Shown here: piece after piece, positions 28,817 to 40,013 of the stretch
Position numbering within the stretch: the first letter of the stretch is position 1
How the letters are laid out: every line of letters begins with the position of its first letter
Origin: Rheinheimera mangrovi
GTDB taxonomy: Bacteria; Pseudomonadota; Gammaproteobacteria; Enterobacterales; Alteromonadaceae
Length of the DNA: 64,000 bases
Direction: 5' to 3'
Assembly: GCF_003990335.1 (NCBI RefSeq)
Contig: NZ_CP034683.1
Span: forward strand, 62,001-126,000
Program-made: the position numbers and the translations under genes
The notes under the pieces: generated by a model
Told to the model about the DNA's origin: nothing
What the model saw: the letters and a program-made list of their open reading frames with translations, nothing else
Databases searched by the model: none

Positions 28817-28954
28817 CCGCGCCCTAACGAATGGATTATCAGGGCGTACTTAAGTTCAGAGTGCGCCACGAACTCCGGCAAATCATCGCTTGCTATGGGG
28901 ATGAGTGACAGGCTGAAATTCGTGGGCATCCCTCAGGACCTGGTCCAATAAAGC

Positions 28955-29734
28955 TTAACTGGCGGTCCCGTTCACTTCGCCATTCAGATAGGCTTTGATT
29001 TGTTGGCCCATCATAGTGAAGTAATCAAGAATGCTCTGGCGTACCGGTTCCATTTCTGACGCTGTTATGTTCTGAAAATCTTTCGGGTCTTCAAAATTGT
29101 CCAGTATTTTATGTTTCGCTTGATAATTAGTCAGCGTTTCCAGTTTCGGCATCAGCGTCAGGTCGACAGGCTGATGAATGGTTTCAACACTGATAGCAAA
29201 AGCGGCAGAGCTGAAGTAGTTGTCCATACCTAAAAAGCTGCGGGTAAACAGACCGTAGCCCTGGCTGTAAAACTCGTTGCAGCCATAGTTACCGCATTCG
29301 AGATAAGCCAGAGACGGGGTTTCATACACGCTGATCACGACTTGGATCCCTTCGGCCAGCAGGCGTTTGCGCAGCAGGTCCTGCTCCATCGTAAATTGCC
29401 AGTTTTGATCCCGCACTTCGACAAAGTTCAGAGGTTGCAATGGCATCCGATTCCATTTGCTCAGGTCCACCACCTCAAAACGTTCAGGCCGCTCTAACTG
29501 AGCTTTTAAGGTGTCAAAAATGCTGTTGGACATCTGCCATTGAAAAGGGTAACTGGTATTGAAATTATTAAATACAGTGGTGCCTATATGGCTGTGATTG
29601 ACATTGTCTCCTGCTACAACCAACACTCCTATTTTGGTTTTAGCAGGTAAATTCAGGCTGGGTGTAGGTGGAACATAGGTAGTGGCACAAGCACTCAACA
29701 GCAGGCTTAATGCCAGGGCAAGCCAAACTTTCAT
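28955..29734 (-). CDS. Conserved hypothetical lipoprotein
   Basis: 259 residues with a clear lipobox (LLLSACATT) at about residue 16, so likely anchored in the outer membrane. I do not recognise the family. After a Pro-rich linker (PPTPSLNLPAKTK), a mixed alpha/beta domain begins IGVLVVAGDNVNHSHIGTTV; two cysteines occur close together in LECGNYGCNEFYSQGY. AAGGAAAG precedes the ATG. It is convergent with acpS. Confidence 0.65.
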   Translation of the reverse strand: MKVWLALALSLLLSACATTYVPPTPSLNLPAKTKIGVLVVAGDNVNHSHIGTTVFNNFNTSYPFQWQMSNSIFDTLKAQLERPERFEVVDLSKWNRMPLQPLNFVEVRDQNWQFTMEQDLLRKRLLAEGIQVVISVYETPSLAYLECGNYGCNEFYSQGYGLFTRSFLGMDNYFSSAAFAISVETIHQPVDLTLMPKLETLTNYQAKHKILDNFEDPKDFQNITASEMEPVRQSILDYFTMMGQQIKAYLNGEVNGTAS

Positions 29735-30237
29735 AAGCTTTCCTTAGTAAAAAAATCCAGTGGAAATGAATGGGAAAAATCCTGCTTTTTATAGCAGTAA
29801 GTTTACTGTTTTTAAACAACTTTATTCACTGGGGTATGCACTGAAAGGCTGAGTTCTTACCCTTTGCCCCGCAGTTTAATTTGTTGAAAACATGCTAAGA
29901 CATTAAAAATTAATCTTTATCTTGCTCACAGCGTCAGCTCATACATTCGACACGAACACAGCCGATTTTTAGTTGGCTCACTCAGAAGAGTATAAACCTA
30001 TCTTTAGGGGTAAAACGCAAGACCTGTCACTGTTTCATGATTGCACATCTTGCAATGTGCAGTATCTGATCATAAGTCTGCGTTTGGATCAACTACCAGC
30101 TGGGTATTCAAAAAGCGTCCGTGGTCTTGCTCTATGTTTAAGATGCACAAAGTGATTATTTCCCCAAAATTGATTTTTAGTCATTCTATTGATGCTCGCG
30201 ATTAGTTAACATCACAAATATATTATTTACATTTTTT
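29735..30237. other. 503-base AT-rich intergenic region
   Basis: I find no supported gene here. A 60-codon frame at 29973-30155 has no RBS and no protein-like character. A perfect dyad TGCACAT / ATGTGCA with a 6-base spacer lies at 30042-30061 and could be a regulator site. The composition is visibly more AT-rich than the preceding operon, consistent with the start of an accessory region. Confidence 0.5.
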
Positions 30238-30639
30238 ATGGGTGACACTGTGCGCTTGATGCTTTTCTTGTTTTTGGTTTGCTTTTCAGCTTCTTCAGAG
30301 GCACTTATCAAAGGCTATATCGATAGCGTGAGGGCTCGCTCTGATGGAAAAGTCAGGATTAGTGGTTGGGCTTGTGATAGTGGAGTCTCATTGTCTATCA
30401 ACGTGCATATTTATTTGGGTGGACCTGCAGGAAAAGGTGGCACTCTCTATAAAGGGGCAACTGCAAACCAGGCGAGCTCAACATCCATTGCGGCTAGTTG
30501 TGGCACCACAGATATTCCTCATCGCTACTCATTGGAAATGTCTCTCAACGATGTAACCCTTTGCCAGCAGTTTGAGCCCAAAAGAGCTCTGGTTAATCGA
30601 GGATTGGGCATTACGCAAAGCTCAGGCAAGACTGTATGA
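30238..30639 (+). CDS. Small secreted protein resembling the N-terminal domain of RHS proteins
   Basis: 133 residues: a signal peptide (LMLFLFLVCFSASSEA) then a domain with KGYIDSVRARSDGKVRISGW, ACDSGVSLSINVHIYLGG and PAGKGGTLYKGA. This GWACD...VHIYLGGPAG pattern is one I associate with the N-terminus of some large secreted RHS-repeat proteins; that link is from memory and not tested. If correct, this is a shortened remnant or stand-alone copy; an RHS fragment lies 3.3 kb away on the opposite strand, beyond two insertion sequences. No good RBS is seen, so ATG 30238, GTG 30250 and ATG 30259 remain possible starts. Confidence 0.5.
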   Translation: MGDTVRLMLFLFLVCFSASSEALIKGYIDSVRARSDGKVRISGWACDSGVSLSINVHIYLGGPAGKGGTLYKGATANQASSTSIAASCGTTDIPHRYSLEMSLNDVTLCQQFEPKRALVNRGLGITQSSGKTV

Positions 30640-30796
30640 TTCAAATCAATCCAAGTAATGAAGACGGGTTAGGTCAGGTATAATAATCTATAAAACTAAA
30701 CTGAACCTTGGAGCATTTAGGGTCAGGTCTAATGTGATGACTCGCCTCCCATCCTGACTTAGGATGAGGTGACCAAACCGAAAGAGGCGAATCATC

Positions 30797-31813
30797 ATGC
30801 TTATCAAAACATTAGGTGTAGATCTTGGCAAGCTCAGTTGTCATGTGATTGGGCAAGATCAGCACGGAAAAGTAGTAGAAAAGCGCAAAATACTGATCAG
30901 TAAGTTTGCAGAATATCTGGCAAATTTACCGCCATGCGCTGTGTTTTTTGAAGCCTGTGGTGGCGCACATCATTGGTGCCGTAAAGCCAGAAGCCTTGGC
31001 CATCGGGCTGACATGATACCGGCCAATTTCGTGAAGCCTTTTGTAAAGTCGAACAAAAACGACTTCAACGATGCCGAAGCCATTTGCGAAGCGGCACAGC
31101 GGCCGACGATGCGTTTTGCGCATGTTCGCAGTGAAGAGCAACAAGCCTTTGGCTGTTTACTCAAGTTACGTGAGCAGTTGGTAGAAGAGCGCACAGCGGT
31201 CAGCAATCAGGCGCATGCGTTTCTGTTGGAATTTGGTATTCAGCAGAAAAAGGGCCGTGCTTTTATCGGCACTGTAGCGGATATGACTGAAAATCCTGAT
31301 ATTAATTTACCTGAAGCGCTGCGTCTGGCGCTGTTCCGTCTGGTGGAGCGTTATAAAGCGGTTGATAAAGAAATCAGTGAGTTGGAACGGGATATCACGG
31401 CGATTAACAGCCAGAACGAGAACTGCAAGCGTATGCAAAGCATTCCGGGTGTAGGTTTAATTACCTCGAGCTTTATTGAATCATGGGCTGGCAGTTGCAA
31501 CCAGTTTAAAAGTGCCAGAGACTTTGCGGCCTGGGCAGGATTAGTACCAAAACAGCATTCAACAGGCGGAGTAAGCAACCTGCTTGGGATCAGCAAACGC
31601 GGTAACAGCACGTTGCGTAAATACCTGATCCACGGTGCACGCTCGGTTATCCAATGGAAGCTCGAAGAAGATCATGCCTGGAGCCCGTGGATTAAAAAGC
31701 TGTTAAGCAGTAAGAAAAAAACAGTGGCGGTGGTCGCTATGGCCAATAAACTGGCCCGCATTATCTGGGCCGTATTAACAAAAGAGCAGAATTACGCAGC
31801 AGTCGCTGCATAA
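30797..31813 (+). CDS. IS110-family transposase (copy 1)
   Basis: 338-residue DEDD-type recombinase. The N-terminal RuvC-like DEDD domain has GVDLGKLSCHV (first Asp), FFEACGGAHHW (Glu) and KNDFNDAEAICEA (last Asp pair). The C-terminal domain has the helix-hairpin-helix IPGVGLITSSFIESW and the conserved serine region SKRGNSTLRKYLIHGAR. All key residues are present, so it should be active. GAGG lies upstream of the ATG. It is identical to the copy at 32736-33752. Confidence 0.95.
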   Translation: MLIKTLGVDLGKLSCHVIGQDQHGKVVEKRKILISKFAEYLANLPPCAVFFEACGGAHHWCRKARSLGHRADMIPANFVKPFVKSNKNDFNDAEAICEAAQRPTMRFAHVRSEEQQAFGCLLKLREQLVEERTAVSNQAHAFLLEFGIQQKKGRAFIGTVADMTENPDINLPEALRLALFRLVERYKAVDKEISELERDITAINSQNENCKRMQSIPGVGLITSSFIESWAGSCNQFKSARDFAAWAGLVPKQHSTGGVSNLLGISKRGNSTLRKYLIHGARSVIQWKLEEDHAWSPWIKKLLSSKKKTVAVVAMANKLARIIWAVLTKEQNYAAVAA

Positions 31814-32030
31814 ACCGGGTCACACCGAGTTTGCAACACGATGGCAATAAGGCAACAACCATGATCGGAAACCTGTCAGGGGCAAAAGCACATAGATGCT
31901 GAAGGTCTTATTAGGGCGATGATGGGCGAACAACATAGCGGGCGGGCACAACAATAAAGTGCCAACAGACTCCGGATAGATTGACGCAGACTTATTTGCT
32001 AACCGTGCTTGCAATATGGAGGCGAGTCAT
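31814..32030 (+). ncRNA. Candidate bridge RNA (seekRNA) region of IS copy 1
   Basis: IS1111-type elements carry a guide RNA in the non-coding stretch between the transposase stop and the right end; this 217-base stretch is that position. Within it, CAGGGGCAA (31877-31885) is complementary to TTGCCCCT, the right half of the observed insertion site, and AGGTCTT (31903-31909) repeats the left half plus junction. They are separated by a small hairpin AGCA-CATAGA-TGCT (31887-31900), so the two guides would face each other in one loop. A second hairpin, GGCAC/GTGCC, is at 31945-31963. The exact RNA ends and the donor-binding loop were not assigned. Confidence 0.65.
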
Positions 32031-32033
32031 AGA

Positions 32034-32154
32034 TTGCCCCTTGCCCAAAAGCAATTTGTTGATTAAATTTCAGTGATGTTAATAAACAAATAACAGAAAA
32101 AACCGTAGAGAACAGTAAATAAAACTATCTTTCAAAGATCGGGGCAAGGGGCAA
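32034..32154 (+). repeat. MITE-like element, copy 1 (left arm displaced by IS)
   Basis: 121-bp non-coding element with terminal inverted repeats TTGCCCCTTGCCC and GGGCAAGGGGCAA. Its outer arms extend the inverted repeat: GACCTGACCCT follows at 32155-32165, and the matching AGGGTCAGGTC (30719-30729) has been pushed away by IS copy 1. The interior is AT-rich and has no ORF. It appears identical to copy 2 at 32395-32515. Confidence 0.85.
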
Positions 32155-32169
32155 GACCTGACCCTGAGG

Positions 32170-32385
32170 TACATCCTGAAGCTTTGTTTTCAAACCCATC
32201 ACAAAAAGCTCTTCCGCGCGACTGTTCGAAACAAGCCTGAATTCTTCCGCAAAGTGCGAACTCATAAAAAGCCGGATTGGGCCGTTGTTGAAATTATTCG
32301 TTTAAAAGCTCTGATGCCAGACACAGGGTGCAGGACTTTGGCTGACTTATTTAACCGTCGTTTTGTCGCACTTCGCAGCATTTAG
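32170..32385 (+). pseudogene. Fragment of an integrase/transposase N-terminal region
   Basis: An open frame without a start codon, about 71 residues ending at TAG 32383-32385. It contains KKPDWAVVEIIRLKALMPD and GCRTLADLFNRRFVALRS, which I recognise as the N-terminal helix-turn-helix part of a DDE integrase family widespread in proteobacteria. The catalytic core is missing. Both edges coincide with the outer arms of MITE copies 1 and 2 (GACCTGACCCTGAGG before, AGGGTCAGGTC after), so it is a remnant trapped between two repeats. Confidence 0.65.
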
Positions 32386-32394
32386 GGTCAGGTC

Positions 32395-32515
32395 TTGCCC
32401 CTTGCCCAAAAGCAATTTGTTGATTAAATTTCAGTGATGTTAATAAACAAATAACAGAAAAAACCGTAGAGAACAGTAAATAAAACTATCTTTCAAAGAT
32501 CGGGGCAAGGGGCAA
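32395..32515 (+). repeat. MITE-like element, copy 2 (right arm displaced by IS)
   Basis: Same 121-bp sequence and orientation as copy 1. Its left outer arm AGGGTCAGGTC is in place at 32384-32394; its right outer arm GACCTGACCCT is now at 33820-33830, displaced by IS copy 2. Confidence 0.85.
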
Positions 32516-32518
32516 TCT

Positions 32519-32735
32519 ATGACTCGCCTCCATATTGCAAGCACGGTTAGCAAATAAGTCTGCGTCAATCTATCCGGAGTCTGTTGGCACTTTATTGTTG
32601 TGCCCGCCCGCTATGTTGTTCGCCCATCATCGCCCTAATAAGACCTTCAGCATCTATGTGCTTTTGCCCCTGACAGGTTTCCGATCATGGTTGTTGCCTT
32701 ATTGCCATCGTGTTGCAAACTCGGTGTGACCCGGT
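32519..32735 (-). ncRNA. Candidate bridge RNA (seekRNA) region of IS copy 2
   Basis: Mirror image of the region in copy 1. The presumed guides are at 32664-32672 (complement TTGCCCCTG on the plus strand) and 32640-32646 (AAGACCT on the plus strand). The same reasoning and uncertainties apply; both copies would make the same RNA. Confidence 0.6.
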
Positions 32736-33752
32736 TTATGCAGCGACTGCTGCGTAATTCTGCTCTTTTGTTAATACGGCCCAGATAATGCGGGCCAGTT
32801 TATTGGCCATAGCGACCACCGCCACTGTTTTTTTCTTACTGCTTAACAGCTTTTTAATCCACGGGCTCCAGGCATGATCTTCTTCGAGCTTCCATTGGAT
32901 AACCGAGCGTGCACCGTGGATCAGGTATTTACGCAACGTGCTGTTACCGCGTTTGCTGATCCCAAGCAGGTTGCTTACTCCGCCTGTTGAATGCTGTTTT
33001 GGTACTAATCCTGCCCAGGCCGCAAAGTCTCTGGCACTTTTAAACTGGTTGCAACTGCCAGCCCATGATTCAATAAAGCTCGAGGTAATTAAACCTACAC
33101 CCGGAATGCTTTGCATACGCTTGCAGTTCTCGTTCTGGCTGTTAATCGCCGTGATATCCCGTTCCAACTCACTGATTTCTTTATCAACCGCTTTATAACG
33201 CTCCACCAGACGGAACAGCGCCAGACGCAGCGCTTCAGGTAAATTAATATCAGGATTTTCAGTCATATCCGCTACAGTGCCGATAAAAGCACGGCCCTTT
33301 TTCTGCTGAATACCAAATTCCAACAGAAACGCATGCGCCTGATTGCTGACCGCTGTGCGCTCTTCTACCAACTGCTCACGTAACTTGAGTAAACAGCCAA
33401 AGGCTTGTTGCTCTTCACTGCGAACATGCGCAAAACGCATCGTCGGCCGCTGTGCCGCTTCGCAAATGGCTTCGGCATCGTTGAAGTCGTTTTTGTTCGA
33501 CTTTACAAAAGGCTTCACGAAATTGGCCGGTATCATGTCAGCCCGATGGCCAAGGCTTCTGGCTTTACGGCACCAATGATGTGCGCCACCACAGGCTTCA
33601 AAAAACACAGCGCATGGCGGTAAATTTGCCAGATATTCTGCAAACTTACTGATCAGTATTTTGCGCTTTTCTACTACTTTTCCGTGCTGATCTTGCCCAA
33701 TCACATGACAACTGAGCTTGCCAAGATCTACACCTAATGTTTTGATAAGCAT
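32736..33752 (-). CDS. IS110-family transposase (copy 2)
   Basis: 338 residues, identical to the product of 30797-31813, with intact DEDD residues and the C-terminal serine region. Transcribed toward copy 1, so the two transposase genes converge on the MITE pair. Confidence 0.95.
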   Translation of the reverse strand: MLIKTLGVDLGKLSCHVIGQDQHGKVVEKRKILISKFAEYLANLPPCAVFFEACGGAHHWCRKARSLGHRADMIPANFVKPFVKSNKNDFNDAEAICEAAQRPTMRFAHVRSEEQQAFGCLLKLREQLVEERTAVSNQAHAFLLEFGIQQKKGRAFIGTVADMTENPDINLPEALRLALFRLVERYKAVDKEISELERDITAINSQNENCKRMQSIPGVGLITSSFIESWAGSCNQFKSARDFAAWAGLVPKQHSTGGVSNLLGISKRGNSTLRKYLIHGARSVIQWKLEEDHAWSPWIKKLLSSKKKTVAVVAMANKLARIIWAVLTKEQNYAAVAA

Positions 33753-33819
33753 GATGATTCGCCTCTTTCGGTTTGGTCACCTCATCCTAAGTCAGGATGG
33801 GAGGCGAGTCATCACATTA

Positions 33820-33878
33820 GACCTGACCCTGAGGTACTCTTCAAAGATCGGGGCAAGGGGCAAGACCTGACCCTGAGG
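33820..33878. repeat. MITE outer arm plus truncated third MITE copy
   Basis: GACCTGACCCTGAGG (33820-33834) is the displaced right arm of MITE copy 2. From about 33841 a 23-base right end of the MITE (TCAAAGATCGGGGCAAG...) follows, then a second GACCTGACCCTGAGG (33864-33878). The unit therefore lost most of its body. The RHS remnant begins immediately after. Confidence 0.75.
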
Positions 33879-33891
33879 TTTCCTGAGGTTT

Positions 33892-35122
33892 CTAAGTCAC
33901 ACCCGTACTTTGGCCTCTGGCGTTCACTGCTGTGGTCAGGTGATAGACAGTACCCGCACTGCCGCTGCTGTAGTCTGTGGTTTTATAGGCGGCACCAAAA
34001 CTGTAGTCAGTGCGGATTTTAGGGCCTATGATGCTGCCAGAGCTTGGGTAGGTCAGCTCATAAGGACGGCCGTAGCTATCATAGGTGCTGGATGTGGTGT
34101 AACTCGCCCCGCCTGTGCTGATGGTTTTACTGCTGACCAGCGCTTTGCTGTTGTACAGATAACTTTCTGAATAGGCAGGAGTGACCGTGCTGTCGCAGGC
34201 CGTATTACTGGCCGTCCACTGTTTCATACCCATCAGCTGATTGACGTTGTAGCTGGCCGCTGTACTGCCATAACTCCAGCAGACTGTGCCGCTGGGGTCG
34301 TACCGCCTTATCATCTGACCTGCGTTGTTGTATTCAAACACTGTGGTTTGGGCTTTGGCATTGGTTTGGCTTATCAGCTCGCCAAAGCCATTGGTCACAT
34401 AACTCCAGCTGCCTTTGTCCAGATCTGTCATGGCGTATTTGCGGCCATAGGCGTCGTAGCTGTTACTGACCCGGGTCACGCCAGCAAAGCTTGCTGTTAA
34501 TAAATCACCATAGGCGTTGTAGCTAAAGCTCAGTACACTGCCTTTATGGTCTGTGGTGCTGACCGTCTGGCCTAAATAGTTGCTTTGGCTGCTTTTCGTT
34601 TTCAGTAAGGCATCGGTGTTCGTCGTGGTATAACCGCTGTAGTCCACCTTCGATACGCCACCATTGGCCATCGTGGTTTGTGTCGCCCGCCCCAAAGCGT
34701 CGTAACTCACCGTACTTACATAGCTGGACACACTGCCAATATGAGGCTCAAACACCTGAGAAGGACGGCCTTGATTATCATAAGTTTTACGGCTAACCGA
34801 ATACGCGCCCGACACTGGCAGCTTGGTTTTACTGCCCACTTCGCGGCCATATTTATCAATAAACTGCTGCTGCTCCGCGCCAGTCACACTGCTGGTCACT
34901 ACTTTGATATAGGCGTCCGGAAACAGGGTTTCACAGGAATTACAGAAGCTTTTGCTGACAGTGCCCGTCACCGCTGTATCACTGGCCAGCGCCCCTTTGA
35001 CGGAGCTGCTGGTACTCTGGCCAAAGGCGTCAAAGTTGGTGGTGCTGCTTTGGTTATTTGGGCTTACCACAGTAATCGAGGTGATCAGTGCTGGGGTAAA
35101 ACTTGCGGCTGCTACATCGAAT
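33892..35122 (-). pseudogene. RHS/YD-repeat protein remnant
   Basis: About 410 codons with successive YD repeats: DNQGRPSQVFEPH, YDALGRATQTTMANGG, YNAYGDLLTASFAGVT, YDAYGRKYAMTDLDKGSW, YDSYGRPYELTYPSSG. RHS proteins are normally well over 1000 residues with a secretion signal and a C-terminal toxin or core domain. Here there is neither; the frame opens after a stop at about 35123 and ends at a stop where the MITE fragment begins. The GTG at 35070 is only the first possible start codon. It is probably the middle of a larger gene cut by repeat insertions. Confidence 0.8.
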
Positions 35123-35247
35123 TAACGCGAAGCAGATGTTTTAACAATCGATGCTACTGCTGTATTGGCGAGCATAAACCCTGGCCGCTACCCATGTTGA
35201 AGCGTCTTGAGGTATAAAGAGCTTACATTTGGCCGTTGGTGAAAAAG

Positions 35248-36036
35248 ATGCAAAAAGGTAGTTTGGTGTGCGTAGGCACAGGTATGACGTTGGGTTCTCA
35301 TATCAGTCCTTTATCCCGCAGTTATATAGAACAAGCTGATGTAGTTTTTGTATTAGTGGCTGACGGTACGACTGAGCTATGGGTTCAGGGCATGAATGCC
35401 GATGTACGCAGCCTGCAGCCTTATTATTGTGAAGGTCAGTCGCGTAAGATCACCTATAAACAAATGGTGGCAGCACTGCTTGCCGAAGTCCGTTTGGGCA
35501 AAAAGGTCTGTGGGGCTTTTTATGGTCATCCCGGAGTGTTTGCCTGGGTGCCACATCAGGCTATTAAAGAAGCTATAGCTGAAGGGTATCGGGCTCATAT
35601 GGAGCCGGGTATTTCCGCTGAAGATTGTTTATACGCTGATTTGGGTTTAGACCCCGGCACTTATGGCTGCCAGCATTATGAAGCCAGCAACCTGATGTTT
35701 TATCAGCGCACCATCGACACCGCCGCTTATTTGATTTTATGGCAGATAGGAGTCGCAGGTGATAAATCATTGGCGAAATTCAGCACAGGCAGTGCGTATC
35801 GGGAAGTCTTGGTTGAACTGTTAAGCCAATGGTATCCGCTGGACCATCAGGTGATTTTATACGAAGCCGTCACTTTACCTATTCAACAACCTCGTATTGA
35901 GCGAATGGCTTTGTCTGATTTACCTCAAGCCCAAATGGACTTAAAAACCACTTTAGTGATACCTCCAGCCAGTGTTGCTAAGCCCAATCAGGCTATTTTA
36001 GATAAGCTAAAAGCTGTAGTAGCTCAGGACGCATAA
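35248..36036 (+). CDS. Borosin-type peptide alpha-N-methyltransferase (SonM-like)
   Basis: 262-residue enzyme of the tetrapyrrole-methylase fold that, in borosins, methylates backbone amides of a precursor peptide using SAM. From memory it closely follows SonM of Shewanella: GSLVCVGTGMTLGSHISPLS at the start, the SAM-site YGHPGVFAW (92-100), MEPGISAEDCLYADLGLDPG (118-137), LLSQWYPLDHQVILYEA and IQQPRIERMAL. Tyr59/Tyr60, Arg66 and Tyr70 lie where the catalytic Tyr/Arg residues of OphMA and SonM occur. ATG 35248 gives an N-terminus like SonM; a TTG at 35236 would add four residues. One base separates its stop from the GNAT start, and the precursor gene lies downstream. It lacks a fused peptide tail, hence the split type. 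Confidence 0.88.
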   Translation: MQKGSLVCVGTGMTLGSHISPLSRSYIEQADVVFVLVADGTTELWVQGMNADVRSLQPYYCEGQSRKITYKQMVAALLAEVRLGKKVCGAFYGHPGVFAWVPHQAIKEAIAEGYRAHMEPGISAEDCLYADLGLDPGTYGCQHYEASNLMFYQRTIDTAAYLILWQIGVAGDKSLAKFSTGSAYREVLVELLSQWYPLDHQVILYEAVTLPIQQPRIERMALSDLPQAQMDLKTTLVIPPASVAKPNQAILDKLKAVVAQDA

Positions 36037-36037
36037 A

Positions 36038-36574
36038 GTGAATACAGATTGGCATAAGGCGGCAGTTGCAGAAAACTTTGAGATCACTACAGCGCGTTTG
36101 TTGATCCGCCCTTTGGCTGAACAGGATTTACAGCTGTACCTGGATTTATACACTAATGCAGAGACTATGGTGTTTGTTGGTGAACCTTTGCCGCCCGAAC
36201 AGGCCACTCATAGCTTTGAAGTGGCGTTACGATTAAATGCTAAAACCCCCTTTAAGCGGCTATTTCTGACCATTGTTGAACAAGGGCGATGTGCAGGTTT
36301 GTGTGCTATCAACCAATGGAGCAGTGAAACCGGCATAGCAGAGGTTGGCATTATGTTGCTGCGGCCCTGGCATGGTCAGGGTTATGCAACAGAAGCTCTG
36401 GGTGCATTAATTCAACGAGTGCAGCAGCAGTTTTATGGTGCAGTGATCAAAGGTGATTTAGATCCTAATAATCAGGCCGCAGTGCAGCTGGTATTAAAAA
36501 CTGGCTTTCAGCCTGACGTGCACCATGCCAGAACCTATTGGGTGAAGCCGAACTATGCAATAGCGCCATTGTGA
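36038..36574 (+). CDS. GNAT-family N-acetyltransferase
   Basis: 178 residues with a RimJ/RimL-like N-terminus (ITTARLLIRPLAEQDLQLYL), strand pair GIAEVGIMLLRP and the acetyl-CoA pyrophosphate loop RPWHGQGYATEAL (about 110-122), then DLDPNNQAAVQLVLKTGF. It starts with GTG 1 base after the methyltransferase stop, so the two are likely translated together. Its place between a borosin methyltransferase and its precursor suggests it modifies the peptide or provides self-protection; this is inference, as GNAT proteins also acetylate ribosomal proteins and small molecules. Confidence 0.85.
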   Translation: MNTDWHKAAVAENFEITTARLLIRPLAEQDLQLYLDLYTNAETMVFVGEPLPPEQATHSFEVALRLNAKTPFKRLFLTIVEQGRCAGLCAINQWSSETGIAEVGIMLLRPWHGQGYATEALGALIQRVQQQFYGAVIKGDLDPNNQAAVQLVLKTGFQPDVHHARTYWVKPNYAIAPL

Positions 36575-36703
36575 TAAAAACTTAAACAGAGAACTGGTTC
36601 TGCATGCTTGTGCTTTTAATTTTATCGTTTTAAAGTGGATTTGCGTCAGCACTTCTGGCATCTGATTTTTAATGATGCGTTGTTTTGTAGTTTTGGAGTC
36701 GTT

Positions 36704-36973
36704 ATGTCAAAAATTATCAGTTTGTTAGAAAGATTGGGCGAGAATGCAGAGTTCCGCTATGCCAACGCCGAACAATTAGCTGTATTAATTTCGGATACAG
36801 ACCCTGCGCTAATAGACGCTGTAATTAGCGGAGATCAGCAAGCTTTAGAGGCAATTTTAGGGGCGCGCTCTAATATAGTCTGTGCGATTTACCCCGCAGA
36901 TGAACCTCATCAAGATGAGCCTGCTGACGATGAGCAGGACGAGGACAAAATACATTTGAAACATTGTGGCTAA
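36704..36973 (+). CDS. Split-borosin precursor peptide (SonA-like)
   Basis: 89 residues. Residues 1-52 form a helical binding domain (SLLERLGENAEFRYANAEQL, DPALIDAVISGDQQALEAIL) that aligns, from memory, with the borosin binding domain of SonA: shared LGx(N/D)A and I(D/N)AV(M/I)(T/S)GD. A short hydrophobic stretch follows, SNIVCAIYPAD (56-66), the likely methylated core by position, then a strongly acidic tail (DEPADDEQDED) ending IHLKHCG. GGAG lies 5 bases before ATG 36704; an upstream frame extension to 36635 is spurious. It is 129 bases after the GNAT gene and 9 before a GGDEF gene. It has no signal peptide. Confidence 0.82.
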   Translation: MSKIISLLERLGENAEFRYANAEQLAVLISDTDPALIDAVISGDQQALEAILGARSNIVCAIYPADEPHQDEPADDEQDEDKIHLKHCG

Positions 36974-36982
36974 TTCTGCCCA

Positions 36983-38743
36983 ATGAGGCATACAAGAAGT
37001 TCATTTCCAGTCTGCAAACCGCACTTGCTAGTGTGGTTTATTTTTTTATTTGCTTTTCCTTTGGCCCCTGTCTGGGCTGACGTTTTCGTTGAGCAGTTAG
37101 TTAAAGCAGATCAAATAAAAAACACTGATTTTCAAATCTTTCGTCAGCAATTGGAGCTGTTAAAAAAAGACTCTGGCTCATTCTCTGATTTTGAAACTGA
37201 CTATTTGCACTTACTGATGGCTTATGAAGCGGCCTATATGGGCAATACGGAGAAAACAATTGAATTGACAACAAGCCTGATTAGTTCAGGAACTCACACC
37301 GACATTAGTTTTCGGGCTAAAGCTCTCGCAATAAATAGTTTAGTGGTCGCCAGACGTTATCTGGATGCGTTTAATTATCTGGAGCAGTTAATTGCTCAGT
37401 TACCCGATGTGCGAGCTGCTTTGGCGCGAGAACAAGGTTTGATGGTTATAGCTATGATGTACAGATACATTGACCGCTATGAGTTAACTATCGAATATAC
37501 CCGTATTCTAGAAGGCGAGAAGCCTAGAAATACGGCTATATGTACAGCAAGACAACTCCGATTAGACGCATTACTGGCTTCAGGCCAATATGATTTATTT
37601 GAACAGGAATATGAGCAAGGCATTAGCGTATGTGAATTAAGTAAGAATTTGCTCTTTGCCACTTTGATTCGATTATACAAAGCGCAATATTTACTAACTC
37701 AAAATAAAGACAACGAAGCTCTTCGTCTTATTTTAGATAGTTATCCTGCAGCAGAAAAAACGCATTATCAGCGTTTGATGACTGAGCTAAATAGCATATT
37801 GGCGCAGATTTATGCCAAAACGAATCAGAATCAACAAGCCAGGCACTATGCAACACTAGTGGTTAGTCATAATGTTACCGGTGACGATGTTGCTACTTTG
37901 CCTATAGTGAATACTCTCAAGGTATTGGCAGAGTTAAACAAACAAGAAAAAAACTACAAGCAAGCATTGGATTACCACGAACAATATATGGCCGCTTTTA
38001 CTGCGTATATGGATGATAAATCGGCGCAACAAATGGCTTACCATACAGCGCATTCGGAAATTATGGCGCAAAACCAAAAAATCGCCTTGCTGGATAAAGA
38101 CAACCAATTGCTACAGTACGAACAAACTGCGCTTAAGCATCAGGCTACGTTTAACAAACTACTGATTGCTGCTTTAATTGTGCTGGTGCTGGGCCTTACG
38201 ATACTGGCGTATCGTAGTTATGTCGCTCGCCAGCGTTTTAAAGCTTTGGCTGAATACGACGATCTCACCGCTATAAGCAACAGATACCATTTCTCGGCCT
38301 CGGCGAAAGGCGCTTTAGCTTTGTGTGAAAAAGGCCAGTTACCTGCTGCTCTTATCGTATTTGATCTGGACCATTTTAAACAAATTAACGATCAGTATGG
38401 CCATGCCGCTGGCGATTGGGCTTTGCGTCAGACTGTTGATACTTGCCGTAACTTTATGCGCAATAACGATGTATTTGGTCGTATTGGTGGTGAAGAGTTC
38501 GCCATTTTTTTGCCTGGTTGTCAGAGTGACAAGGCCCACTTATTGGCTGATATTTGTCGTGATGCAATTAACAGTATTGATACTGCAGCTTCGGGTTATG
38601 AGTTTAAATTAAGTGCTAGTTTTGGCGTCACTTCTGCTGAACTTTCAGGTTACCATTTAACCAAACTGATCGAAGATGCAGACACTGCCATGTATCAGGC
38701 TAAGCAGTTGGGGCGAAACAAGGTGCATTTTTTTAACGGCTAA
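36983..38743 (+). CDS. TPR-containing membrane diguanylate cyclase (GGDEF)
   Basis: 586 residues: signal peptide (WFIFLFAFPLAPVWA), a periplasmic helical region of TPR-like repeats (about 35-360), a coiled stretch, one membrane span (LLIAALIVLVLGLTILAYRS, about 393-412), and a cytosolic GGDEF domain. The catalytic motif reads GGEEF in FGRIGGEEFAIF with DLDHFKQINDQYGH before it, so c-di-GMP synthesis should be intact. No inhibitory RxxD site is obvious before the GGEEF. It starts 9 bases after the precursor stop, so read-through transcription is likely. Confidence 0.88.
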   Translation: MRHTRSSFPVCKPHLLVWFIFLFAFPLAPVWADVFVEQLVKADQIKNTDFQIFRQQLELLKKDSGSFSDFETDYLHLLMAYEAAYMGNTEKTIELTTSLISSGTHTDISFRAKALAINSLVVARRYLDAFNYLEQLIAQLPDVRAALAREQGLMVIAMMYRYIDRYELTIEYTRILEGEKPRNTAICTARQLRLDALLASGQYDLFEQEYEQGISVCELSKNLLFATLIRLYKAQYLLTQNKDNEALRLILDSYPAAEKTHYQRLMTELNSILAQIYAKTNQNQQARHYATLVVSHNVTGDDVATLPIVNTLKVLAELNKQEKNYKQALDYHEQYMAAFTAYMDDKSAQQMAYHTAHSEIMAQNQKIALLDKDNQLLQYEQTALKHQATFNKLLIAALIVLVLGLTILAYRSYVARQRFKALAEYDDLTAISNRYHFSASAKGALALCEKGQLPAALIVFDLDHFKQINDQYGHAAGDWALRQTVDTCRNFMRNNDVFGRIGGEEFAIFLPGCQSDKAHLLADICRDAINSIDTAASGYEFKLSASFGVTSAELSGYHLTKLIEDADTAMYQAKQLGRNKVHFFNG

Positions 38744-38822: not shown

Positions 38823-40013
38823 TTGAAAGCATTTTTGTGGTCATTGTGTTTGCACATCGTGTTGTTAGGTTTATTAACCTATCATCATTTTGCGCCGGAT
38901 GATGCCGCAAAAACAGTGCCAGAGCCTCCTATTCTGGCTTACGCTTATCAGCCAATTAAAGCCAAAACAGCTCCGGCAGTGGTCACGCCTGTCGCTGTTC
39001 CTGCCAAAGTGGTGACACCACAACCTCCTGTCAAAGCGGTTAAAAAAGGTGAAACCAAGGCGGTAGTTAAAAAAGCTGCAGTGAAAAAGCCAGCGGCAAA
39101 GAAAGTCGTGCCGAAAAATGAGCCAACCAAGGCAAAGCCACAAGTAAAAACCAAACCAGCCATAGTCAAAGCTGCCTCTGTTCAGCCACAGCGCAAACCT
39201 TTTGTGCCCGTGCGCAAGCCCGCTATGGTCAAGCCTATGCCTGTAGCAGCTAAACCCTTGCCAAAGCCTGTGATCAAACAGCCAGAAGTAGTAGCAGCTA
39301 AGCCATTGCCAAAGCCTGTGATTAAACAGCCTGAAGTGGTAGCAGCGAAGCCGTTACCAATGCCTGTGATTAAACAGCCTGAAGTGGTAGCAGCGAAGCC
39401 GTTACCAATGCCTGTGATCAAACAGCCAGAAGTGGTCGCAGCTAAGCCGTTACCAAAGCCTGTGATCAAACAGCCAGAAGTAGTAGCAGCGCAGCCATTG
39501 CCAAAGCCTGTGATTAAACAGCCAGAAGTGGTCGCAGCCAAAGCATTGCCAGAGGTTTTACCCAAACAAGCTGATGTTGCGTCAGCACAAGCCATTCAGC
39601 TGAAAGCCAATCAAACTGCCACAAAAAACACCGCAGATACTACGACACAACAAGCAACCACAGCTGTGGCTGCTTCTTTGGAACAGCAGAAAACCACAGC
39701 CAATAAAGCGTTACAGGCTGCCAAACAAGGGGATGCTTCAGGCTCTGCCAGTTGGAAAGAAAAACAAAAACAGCTGGCACTGGAGATCACGGCACTAAAA
39801 GCTGAACAAAAGCCGGAAATGGGCAGGAAAGTAAAAGCCTTTGCTGACGGCAGCATGCTGATTGACACTAATCCAGGCTGCTGGAAAGTTCCTCCTGCTG
39901 AGTCTCGTAAAAATGCCATCTGGTTGTCAACCAGTGTGCCTTGTAAAGCCGATACCACAGTGGAACAAATCAACGACATTTTGCAGAAGCGCCGCACTTA
40001 CTCTAACGATTAG
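38823..40013 (+). CDS. Membrane-anchored Pro/Lys-rich protein with 16-residue tandem repeats
   Basis: 396 residues. One N-terminal span (FLWSLCLHIVLLGLLTY), then a TonB-like Pro/Lys/Val-rich stretch that would cross the periplasm, six near-identical repeats of AAKPLPKPVIKQPEVV plus a seventh degenerate one, a Gln/Ala region, and a C-terminal globular part (MLIDTNPGCWKVPP, WLSTSVPCKADTTVEQINDIL) with two cysteines. AGGGAG precedes the TTG start. The layout resembles TonB/TolA-type linkers, but the C-terminus is not a TonB domain I recognise. Function unknown. It is convergent with barA (4-base overlap). Confidence 0.7.
   Translation: MKAFLWSLCLHIVLLGLLTYHHFAPDDAAKTVPEPPILAYAYQPIKAKTAPAVVTPVAVPAKVVTPQPPVKAVKKGETKAVVKKAAVKKPAAKKVVPKNEPTKAKPQVKTKPAIVKAASVQPQRKPFVPVRKPAMVKPMPVAAKPLPKPVIKQPEVVAAKPLPKPVIKQPEVVAAKPLPMPVIKQPEVVAAKPLPMPVIKQPEVVAAKPLPKPVIKQPEVVAAQPLPKPVIKQPEVVAAKALPEVLPKQADVASAQAIQLKANQTATKNTADTTTQQATTAVAASLEQQKTTANKALQAAKQGDASGSASWKEKQKQLALEITALKAEQKPEMGRKVKAFADGSMLIDTNPGCWKVPPAESRKNAIWLSTSVPCKADTTVEQINDILQKRRTYSND
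39246..39533 (+). repeat. Six 48-bp tandem repeats inside a coding region
   Basis: Six 48-bp units encode the AAKPLPKPVIKQPEVV repeat, with a K/M swap in units 3 and 4 and Q for K in unit 6. Units differ at a few silent positions, so copy number can change by slippage or unequal exchange without breaking the frame. Confidence 0.9.

Follow-up and report, generated by a model that had tools for sequence, protein, structure and literature searches.

The closest described system to the locus reported here is SonM/SonA of Shewanella oneidensis, a type IV split borosin in which the methyltransferase and the precursor peptide are encoded by separate genes. Two further systems serve for comparison: the RRNPP receptors, such as Rap and NprR, which are cytoplasmic, and the ComQXP pherotype loci of Bacillus, where the modifying enzyme, the precursor, and the sensor domain of the receptor vary and the parts around them are conserved. 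Here, we report that in Rheinheimera mangrovi the genes of a putative split borosin are directly followed by a gene for a predicted exported TPR-GGDEF protein (the sensor); all lie in a 64,000-nucleotide stretch of contig NZ_CP034683.1 (positions 62,001 to 126,000), which is called the window below. A sequence-only reading of the same DNA had described the methyltransferase, a GNAT enzyme, and the precursor; it ends one gene too early, as the adjoining sensor gene is the partner most constantly present and tells the most about the locus. The genes are linked and in part highly polymorphic among relatives; methylation of the peptide, its binding, and signaling are what we infer. On balance, we favor a split-borosin operon of four genes, the product of which is a peptide signal that the co-encoded TPR receptor most likely reads. 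The features are as follows.

35248..36036, + strand: borosin alpha-N-methyltransferase of the SonM type, 262 residues (PF00590, SonM similarity, catalytic residues)
36038..36574, + strand: GNAT acetyltransferase-like enzyme, 178 residues, GTG start (PF13302, E 1.2e-20)
36704..36862, + strand: precursor residues 1–53, borosin-binding leader (SonA match by profile)
36863..36901, + strand: precursor residues 54–66, putative core ARSNIVCAIYPAD (conserved Cys60 and Pro64; exact limits presumed)
36902..36973, + strand: precursor residues 67–89 and stop, acidic tail (computed pI 4.3)
36983..37081, + strand: sensor residues 1–33, predicted signal peptide (hydrophobic stretch; low predicted local distance difference test score, pLDDT)
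37082..37957, + strand: sensor residues 34–325, predicted periplasmic TPR domain with Cys187 and Cys217 (AlphaFold, Rap/NprR matches)
37958..38227, + strand: sensor residues 326–415, long helix and membrane span 392–410 (AlphaFold model, sequence)
38228..38743, + strand: sensor residues 416–586 and stop, GGDEF domain with GGEEF motif (PF00990, E 4.9e-41)

Comparison with SonM/SonA

Gene order, open reading frames (ORFs), and coordinates are as the sequence-only reading had given them, the exact gap between the methyltransferase and the precursor ORF (36704-36973, + strand, 89 residues) being 667 nt with the GNAT gene in between. Its description of a SonM-like enzyme with Tyr and Arg at the catalytic positions is borne out: the methyltransferase matches the Pfam family TP_methylase (PF00590, E 1.1e-16), SonM and mutants of it take the top six of 25 matches in a PDB sequence search (E about 2e-86 to 9e-86), 140 of 254 aligned residues are identical to SonM (55%), and SonM Y58, R67, Y71, Y93, F99, and W166, whose roles in the catalytic site are described in PMC8429565, align with Y60, R66, Y70, Y92, F98, and W165 of the window enzyme. 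The reading had named best matches to cobalamin or siroheme methylases only as evidence against itself; the PDB search instead gave SonM and, for all remaining matches, the fungal borosin enzymes OphMA, dbOphMA, and MroMA, and a cobalamin or siroheme methylase identity is thereby ruled out. The genome (4.63 Mb, one contig) has four TP-methylase places and a single match to the window enzyme. A relative of the enzyme is present in 21 of the 22 genomes of the genus, the window's own counted, and ten fetched loci, mostly named Rheinheimera, have it at 91–94% identity and share synteny with the window, which points to a Rheinheimera host.

The profile search against SonM and SonA that the reading had proposed leads from the enzyme to SonM and from the precursor to SonA, the latter by profile and not by single sequence. 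As a single query against the PDB the precursor did not find SonA (20 of 20 rows were armadillo-repeat proteins), whereas with a 13-row precursor profile SonA takes the first seven of nine PDB rows, with a best E of 5.7e-7 in the leader region. With separate methyltransferase and precursor genes, a SonM-like enzyme, and a leader homologous to that of SonA by profile, the locus is almost certainly a borosin, and from its sequence it would be classed as a split borosin of type IV or a later-named subtype.

Beyond the leader the two precursors differ. SonA has a short C-terminal core, and the window precursor has a core Cys and an acidic tail instead, in agreement with the expectation of a core unlike that of SonA; the SonA-type precursors of loci L171–L173, L175, and L203–L205 have neither. 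Cys60 and Pro64 of the core are almost invariant in a 34-row alignment, and a Cys lies within positions 46–90 of the untrimmed ORF in 88 of 101 distinct precursor ORFs. AlphaFold predicts four helices for the precursor at low confidence (pLDDT 64.7), a model too poor for structure search. A GNAT gene is present in the window locus and none was found in the SonM-type locus L203.

Among 117 genomes of one genus, 101 gave a SonM match, a single one of them at 100% identity; we infer that genome to be S. oneidensis MR-1. The order there is SonM, a 71-residue precursor, and a 596-residue TPR-GGDEF ORF that begins at the base right after the precursor stop, so that this system resembles the window locus in separate genes, catalytic residues, leader, and the TPR-GGDEF gene after the precursor. 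The first 56 residues of the 71-residue precursor are identical to SonA in the PDB, and it contains Leu63 and Ile65, at which methylation has been reported (PMC8429565). According to the main text of that 2021 paper, no split-borosin pathway had yet been linked to a final natural product, and the words GGDEF, diguanylate, and signal were not found in this main text, the supplement lying outside the search. Our literature search, of limited coverage, gave no paper joining borosins with diguanylate cyclases, and earlier notice of the sensor link is possible.

Linkage of the sensor and borosin genes

The sensor gene (36983-38743, + strand, 586 residues) starts nine bases past the precursor stop. 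In our locus set, i.e., 80 fetched relatives and the window (81 loci), a profile search places a sensor directly downstream in 79, and in both misses (L046 and L084) the contig breaks off at the methyltransferase; the weakest matches are those of L055 and L057 (E 2e-3 and 2e-5 when queried with the domain of the window sensor). The sensor is found in none of 75 upstream control stretches. Adjacency is not explained by sensor abundance, because the sensor domain is single-copy in the window's genome. The precursor was detected in 78 of the 81 loci, and a same-strand GNAT lies within 2.5 kb in 67, whereas none of the 16 control stretches, each 5 kb long, has a GNAT match; the split pair and the GNAT are kept together in most loci, which speaks for the sequence-only reading. 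Clustering of the neighborhoods gives a methyltransferase cluster (apparently merged with the GNATs through long ORFs), the sensor (77 loci), the precursor (73 loci), and a next family in 23 loci.

This last result bears on the weakest alternative, namely that the sensor is a bystander retained by shared synteny, which the flanking synteny common to close relatives would allow; the drop to 23 of 81 loci beyond the core genes and the sensor, and the recurrence of the sensor link in SonM-type loci and other genera, make this reading of the GGDEF gene unlikely, and we give it hardly any credence.

We then consider the whole order (148 genomes, with places counted at E 1e-20 or better; as no more than 12 candidates were scored in each genome, the numbers for the sensor are minimum values). 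The sensor family occurs in at least 35 genomes (at least 69 places), the methyltransferase in 37 (54 places), and both in at least 30. The two are within 6 kb of each other at 55 of the 69 listed sensor places and at least 43 of the 54 methyltransferase places. Of the other 11 methyltransferases, ten are immediately followed by a TPR protein that resembles histidine kinases, as Pfam confirms for three and as matches to the sensor profile and to a kinase query indicate for the rest; around the remaining methyltransferase, L207, neither a TPR sensor nor a TPR-kinase was found in the region. These TPR-histidine kinases are without the Cys pair of the sensor, and their TPR parts may therefore be only distantly related to it. 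In one genus, exported TPR-only proteins, up to four in tandem, adjoin the methyltransferase.

Predicted structure of the sensor

AlphaFold predicts the sensor with confidence (415-residue model, mean pLDDT 92.8, helices spanning 32–321), and the best structure matches of the predicted TPR fold are the Rap/NprR pheromone receptors, at 7–14% sequence identity. The structure alignment of the sensors covers 78 of the 88 available sequences, the window's among them. The predicted TPR solenoid has the shape of these RRNPP receptors; the sensor differs from them in being predicted as exported and membrane-anchored, in its GGDEF output, and in a ligand predicted to be N-methylated. It may work like an RRNPP receptor, and is not classed as one because of the predicted signal peptide and membrane span. 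The GGDEF domain is intact as in a diguanylate cyclase, with GG[DE]EF in 89 of 89 sensors. The TPR Cys pair is also present in 89 of 89; as a partner of the core Cys it was rejected, and it is probably structural, because it is equally constant in sensors beside Cys-less SonA-type cores.

At 37016-37039, within the signal-peptide codons of the sensor gene, there is a terminator-like hairpin with a T-run. Similar hairpins were seen in 13 of 92 sensor ORFs and 0 in a control stretch of unmatched composition; attenuation between the precursor and the sensor is possible.

Polymorphism and co-segregation

Among 12 close Rheinheimera loci the flanks are highly conserved (mean identity 98.5% for Era, 97.8 for PdxJ, 97.1 for AcpS, 93.6 for RecO, and, in 11 loci, 96.5 for the downstream kinase), as are the methyltransferase (94.5) and, within the sensor, the linker with the membrane span (87.0) and the GGDEF domain (95.4). 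In between, identity falls to 57.2% for GNAT, 73.3, 77.6, and 46.4 for the leader, core, and tail of the precursor, and 51.6 for the TPR domain. GNAT, the precursor C-terminus, and the TPR domain thus form a polymorphic block between the conserved methyltransferase and the conserved GGDEF domain, which may be read as exchangeable signal-receptor specificity. In six further groups (a single pair taken per locus) GGDEF is again better conserved than the TPR domain, and the SonM-type loci L203 and L204 are 93% identical in the methyltransferase, 40 in TPR, and 72 in GGDEF.

Distances of the core plus tail follow those of the TPR domain closely (Mantel r 0.89, p 2e-4; 0.88 given the flanks and 0.85 given the methyltransferase); the corresponding values for other parts are 0.69 for GNAT, 0.49 (p 0.002) for the methyltransferase, 0.36 (p 0.013) for GGDEF, and 0.24 (p 0.11) for the flanks. 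Synonymous divergence (dS) was calculated for 13 chosen locus pairs, and that of TPR is saturated in seven and below both the methyltransferase and LepA in three: L012/L013 (0.16 vs 0.91 and 0.62), L008/L010 (0.10 vs 0.53 and 0.20), and L007/L011 (0.02 vs 0.16 and 0.16), a pattern as after allele exchange. The dS of the linker and GGDEF is likewise raised in many of the 13 pairs, and the old divergence therefore extends into the GGDEF part at the DNA level.

One genome pair provides an internal control. With the methyltransferases at 95% identity, the sensor adjoining the precursor has 38% identity in TPR and 95 in GGDEF, compared with 74/74 for the second sensor of the cluster and 82/92 for an orphan sensor elsewhere in the same genomes; in this pair TPR hypervariability goes with the position beside the precursor. 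Eight loci have two precursor-sensor pairs each, and their distances correlate best when precursors and sensors are matched as they actually occur (0.93; 2 of 256 assignments, including the mirror image); please note that these loci are mutually related and that linkage alone could yield this outcome.

A variable precursor and sensor domain that co-segregate beside a conserved output are what defines a pherotype, and the close loci show this pattern, although it does not hold for the core alone over 70 loci (see below). The locus is like ComQXP in having a variable modifying enzyme, precursor, and sensor domain flanked by conserved parts, and unlike it in using GNAT, presumptive N-methylation, and a diguanylate cyclase where ComQXP has isoprenylation and a histidine kinase.

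A possible signaling role and its alternatives

The constant adjoining receptor-like gene suggests that borosin peptides may be a chemical signal. The SonM-type enzyme would grip the precursor via its SonA-type leader, with which homology is evident, and methylate core backbone amides; GNAT would add a second, lineage-specific change, e.g., acylation. A protease would release the core; the probable candidate for Shewanella and part of its relatives is the pepsin-like one encoded upstream in 20 of the 81 loci (one such protein matches PF00026). Shewasins reportedly have a link to borosin precursors, for which the literature search, within its limited coverage, gave no paper joining the two. They are pepsin-like proteases of Shewanella (PMC4814920). 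The hydrophobic N-methylated peptide would then arrive in the periplasm or at other cells. As the operon encodes no exporter, diffusion is a possible route; N-methylation is said to favor membrane permeability (PMC8429565), and this could account for the missing exporter. Finally, the peptide would bind the periplasmic TPR domain and switch the cytoplasmic GGDEF domain, altering cyclic di-GMP (c-di-GMP).

Several observations weigh against this signaling role. No exporter gene is present in the operon, and no pepsin-like protease as in the related loci was found in the window's genome (a search without positive control). The association is not exclusive: at 14 of the 69 listed sensor places no methyltransferase lies within 6 kb, and five of these places belong to genomes lacking a methyltransferase match. 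Presumed inner TPR helices are slightly more conserved (0.56 vs 0.46, by an alternation-based assignment and not by coordinates). Lastly, 80 of 92 sensor ORFs could be paired with a precursor, and for the 70 of these 80 pairs that entered the many-locus test there is no core-TPR correlation once methyltransferase distance is removed (0.01, p 0.42); leader-TPR gives 0.56 (p 0.001) and core-GGDEF a weak 0.17 (p 0.003). The short core may be saturated at this depth; the result gives no support to core-receptor matching beyond the genus.

The best-surviving alternative, which we regard as unlikely although worth keeping in mind, is that the borosin has another job (antimicrobial, metal binding via Cys, or inhibitor) and that the TPR-GGDEF protein senses another cue and only times peptide production. 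The orphan sensors, the conserved core Cys, which fits metal or thiol chemistry, and the missing co-variation across 70 loci would all agree with it. However, if the sensor responded to an unrelated cue, its alleles would have no need to change along with those of the precursor; the TPR domain is hypervariable beside the precursor but not in the orphan sensor of that genome pair, and the output varies (GGDEF, kinase, none) while the TPR part persists. Producer self-recognition or immunity, in which the peptide is directed against competitors and is bound by the TPR protein for protection of the producer or recognition of kin, is in our view improbable: toxin-immunity pairs would likewise be expected to show matching polymorphism, and the TPR-only exported proteins of some clusters would suit them, whereas the universal GG[DE]EF motif and the histidine-kinase outputs elsewhere point to signaling.

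If the peptide is indeed a signal read by the sensor, the locus is a Gram-negative peptide-signaling route into c-di-GMP, and a Gram-negative counterpart, based on a ribosomally synthesized and post-translationally modified peptide, to Gram-positive peptide quorum sensing. The broader proposal, for which we see about equal grounds for belief and disbelief, is that gammaproteobacterial split borosins, SonM/SonA included, are N-methylated pheromones which, through a periplasmic Rap/NprR-like receptor, act on c-di-GMP or a histidine kinase and have exchangeable specificity alleles. The constant receptor-like neighbor and the matching polymorphism provide a concrete, testable role for bacterial borosins, and in S. 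oneidensis SonM, SonA, and their methylated complex are already in hand, with the TPR-GGDEF gene directly after SonA.

Further features of the clusters and surroundings

A second precursor gene lies 5' of the methyltransferase in L006 (4774-5052), L007 (7678-7941), L008 (7672-7935), and L012 (7673-7936); none was found in the window. Each of the precursors at L220:4185-4595 and L221:4138-4440 apparently has two stretches that resemble a core, and their clusters contain two sensor genes. In the clusters of L040, L043, and L045, several precursors accompany two sensors, and the cores there include FCCLINPAKP, which contains an adjacent Cys pair. The orphan sensors of L184, L185, L217, and L218, with no borosin gene nearby, were used as control; the neighbors of the first two resemble sugar-transport genes (by look only).

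Upstream, about 6.4 kb (28817-35237) separate acpS from the methyltransferase, where L005 has 83 nt. This insert holds two identical 338-residue ORFs in opposite orientation, IS110-type transposase-like, and an RHS-like fragment (both by look only), and its first 1.2 kb is common to L006; the operon's original promoter context may be lost. Promoter-like sites show no excess (6 vs a shuffle mean of 7.8), and an Rfam scan gave no family at gathering score. Located 3' of the sensor (38823-40013) is a Pro/Lys-rich ORF in which a KPLPKPVIKQPEVVAA-like unit is repeated and which weakly resembles TolA; its cluster comprises 11 loci.
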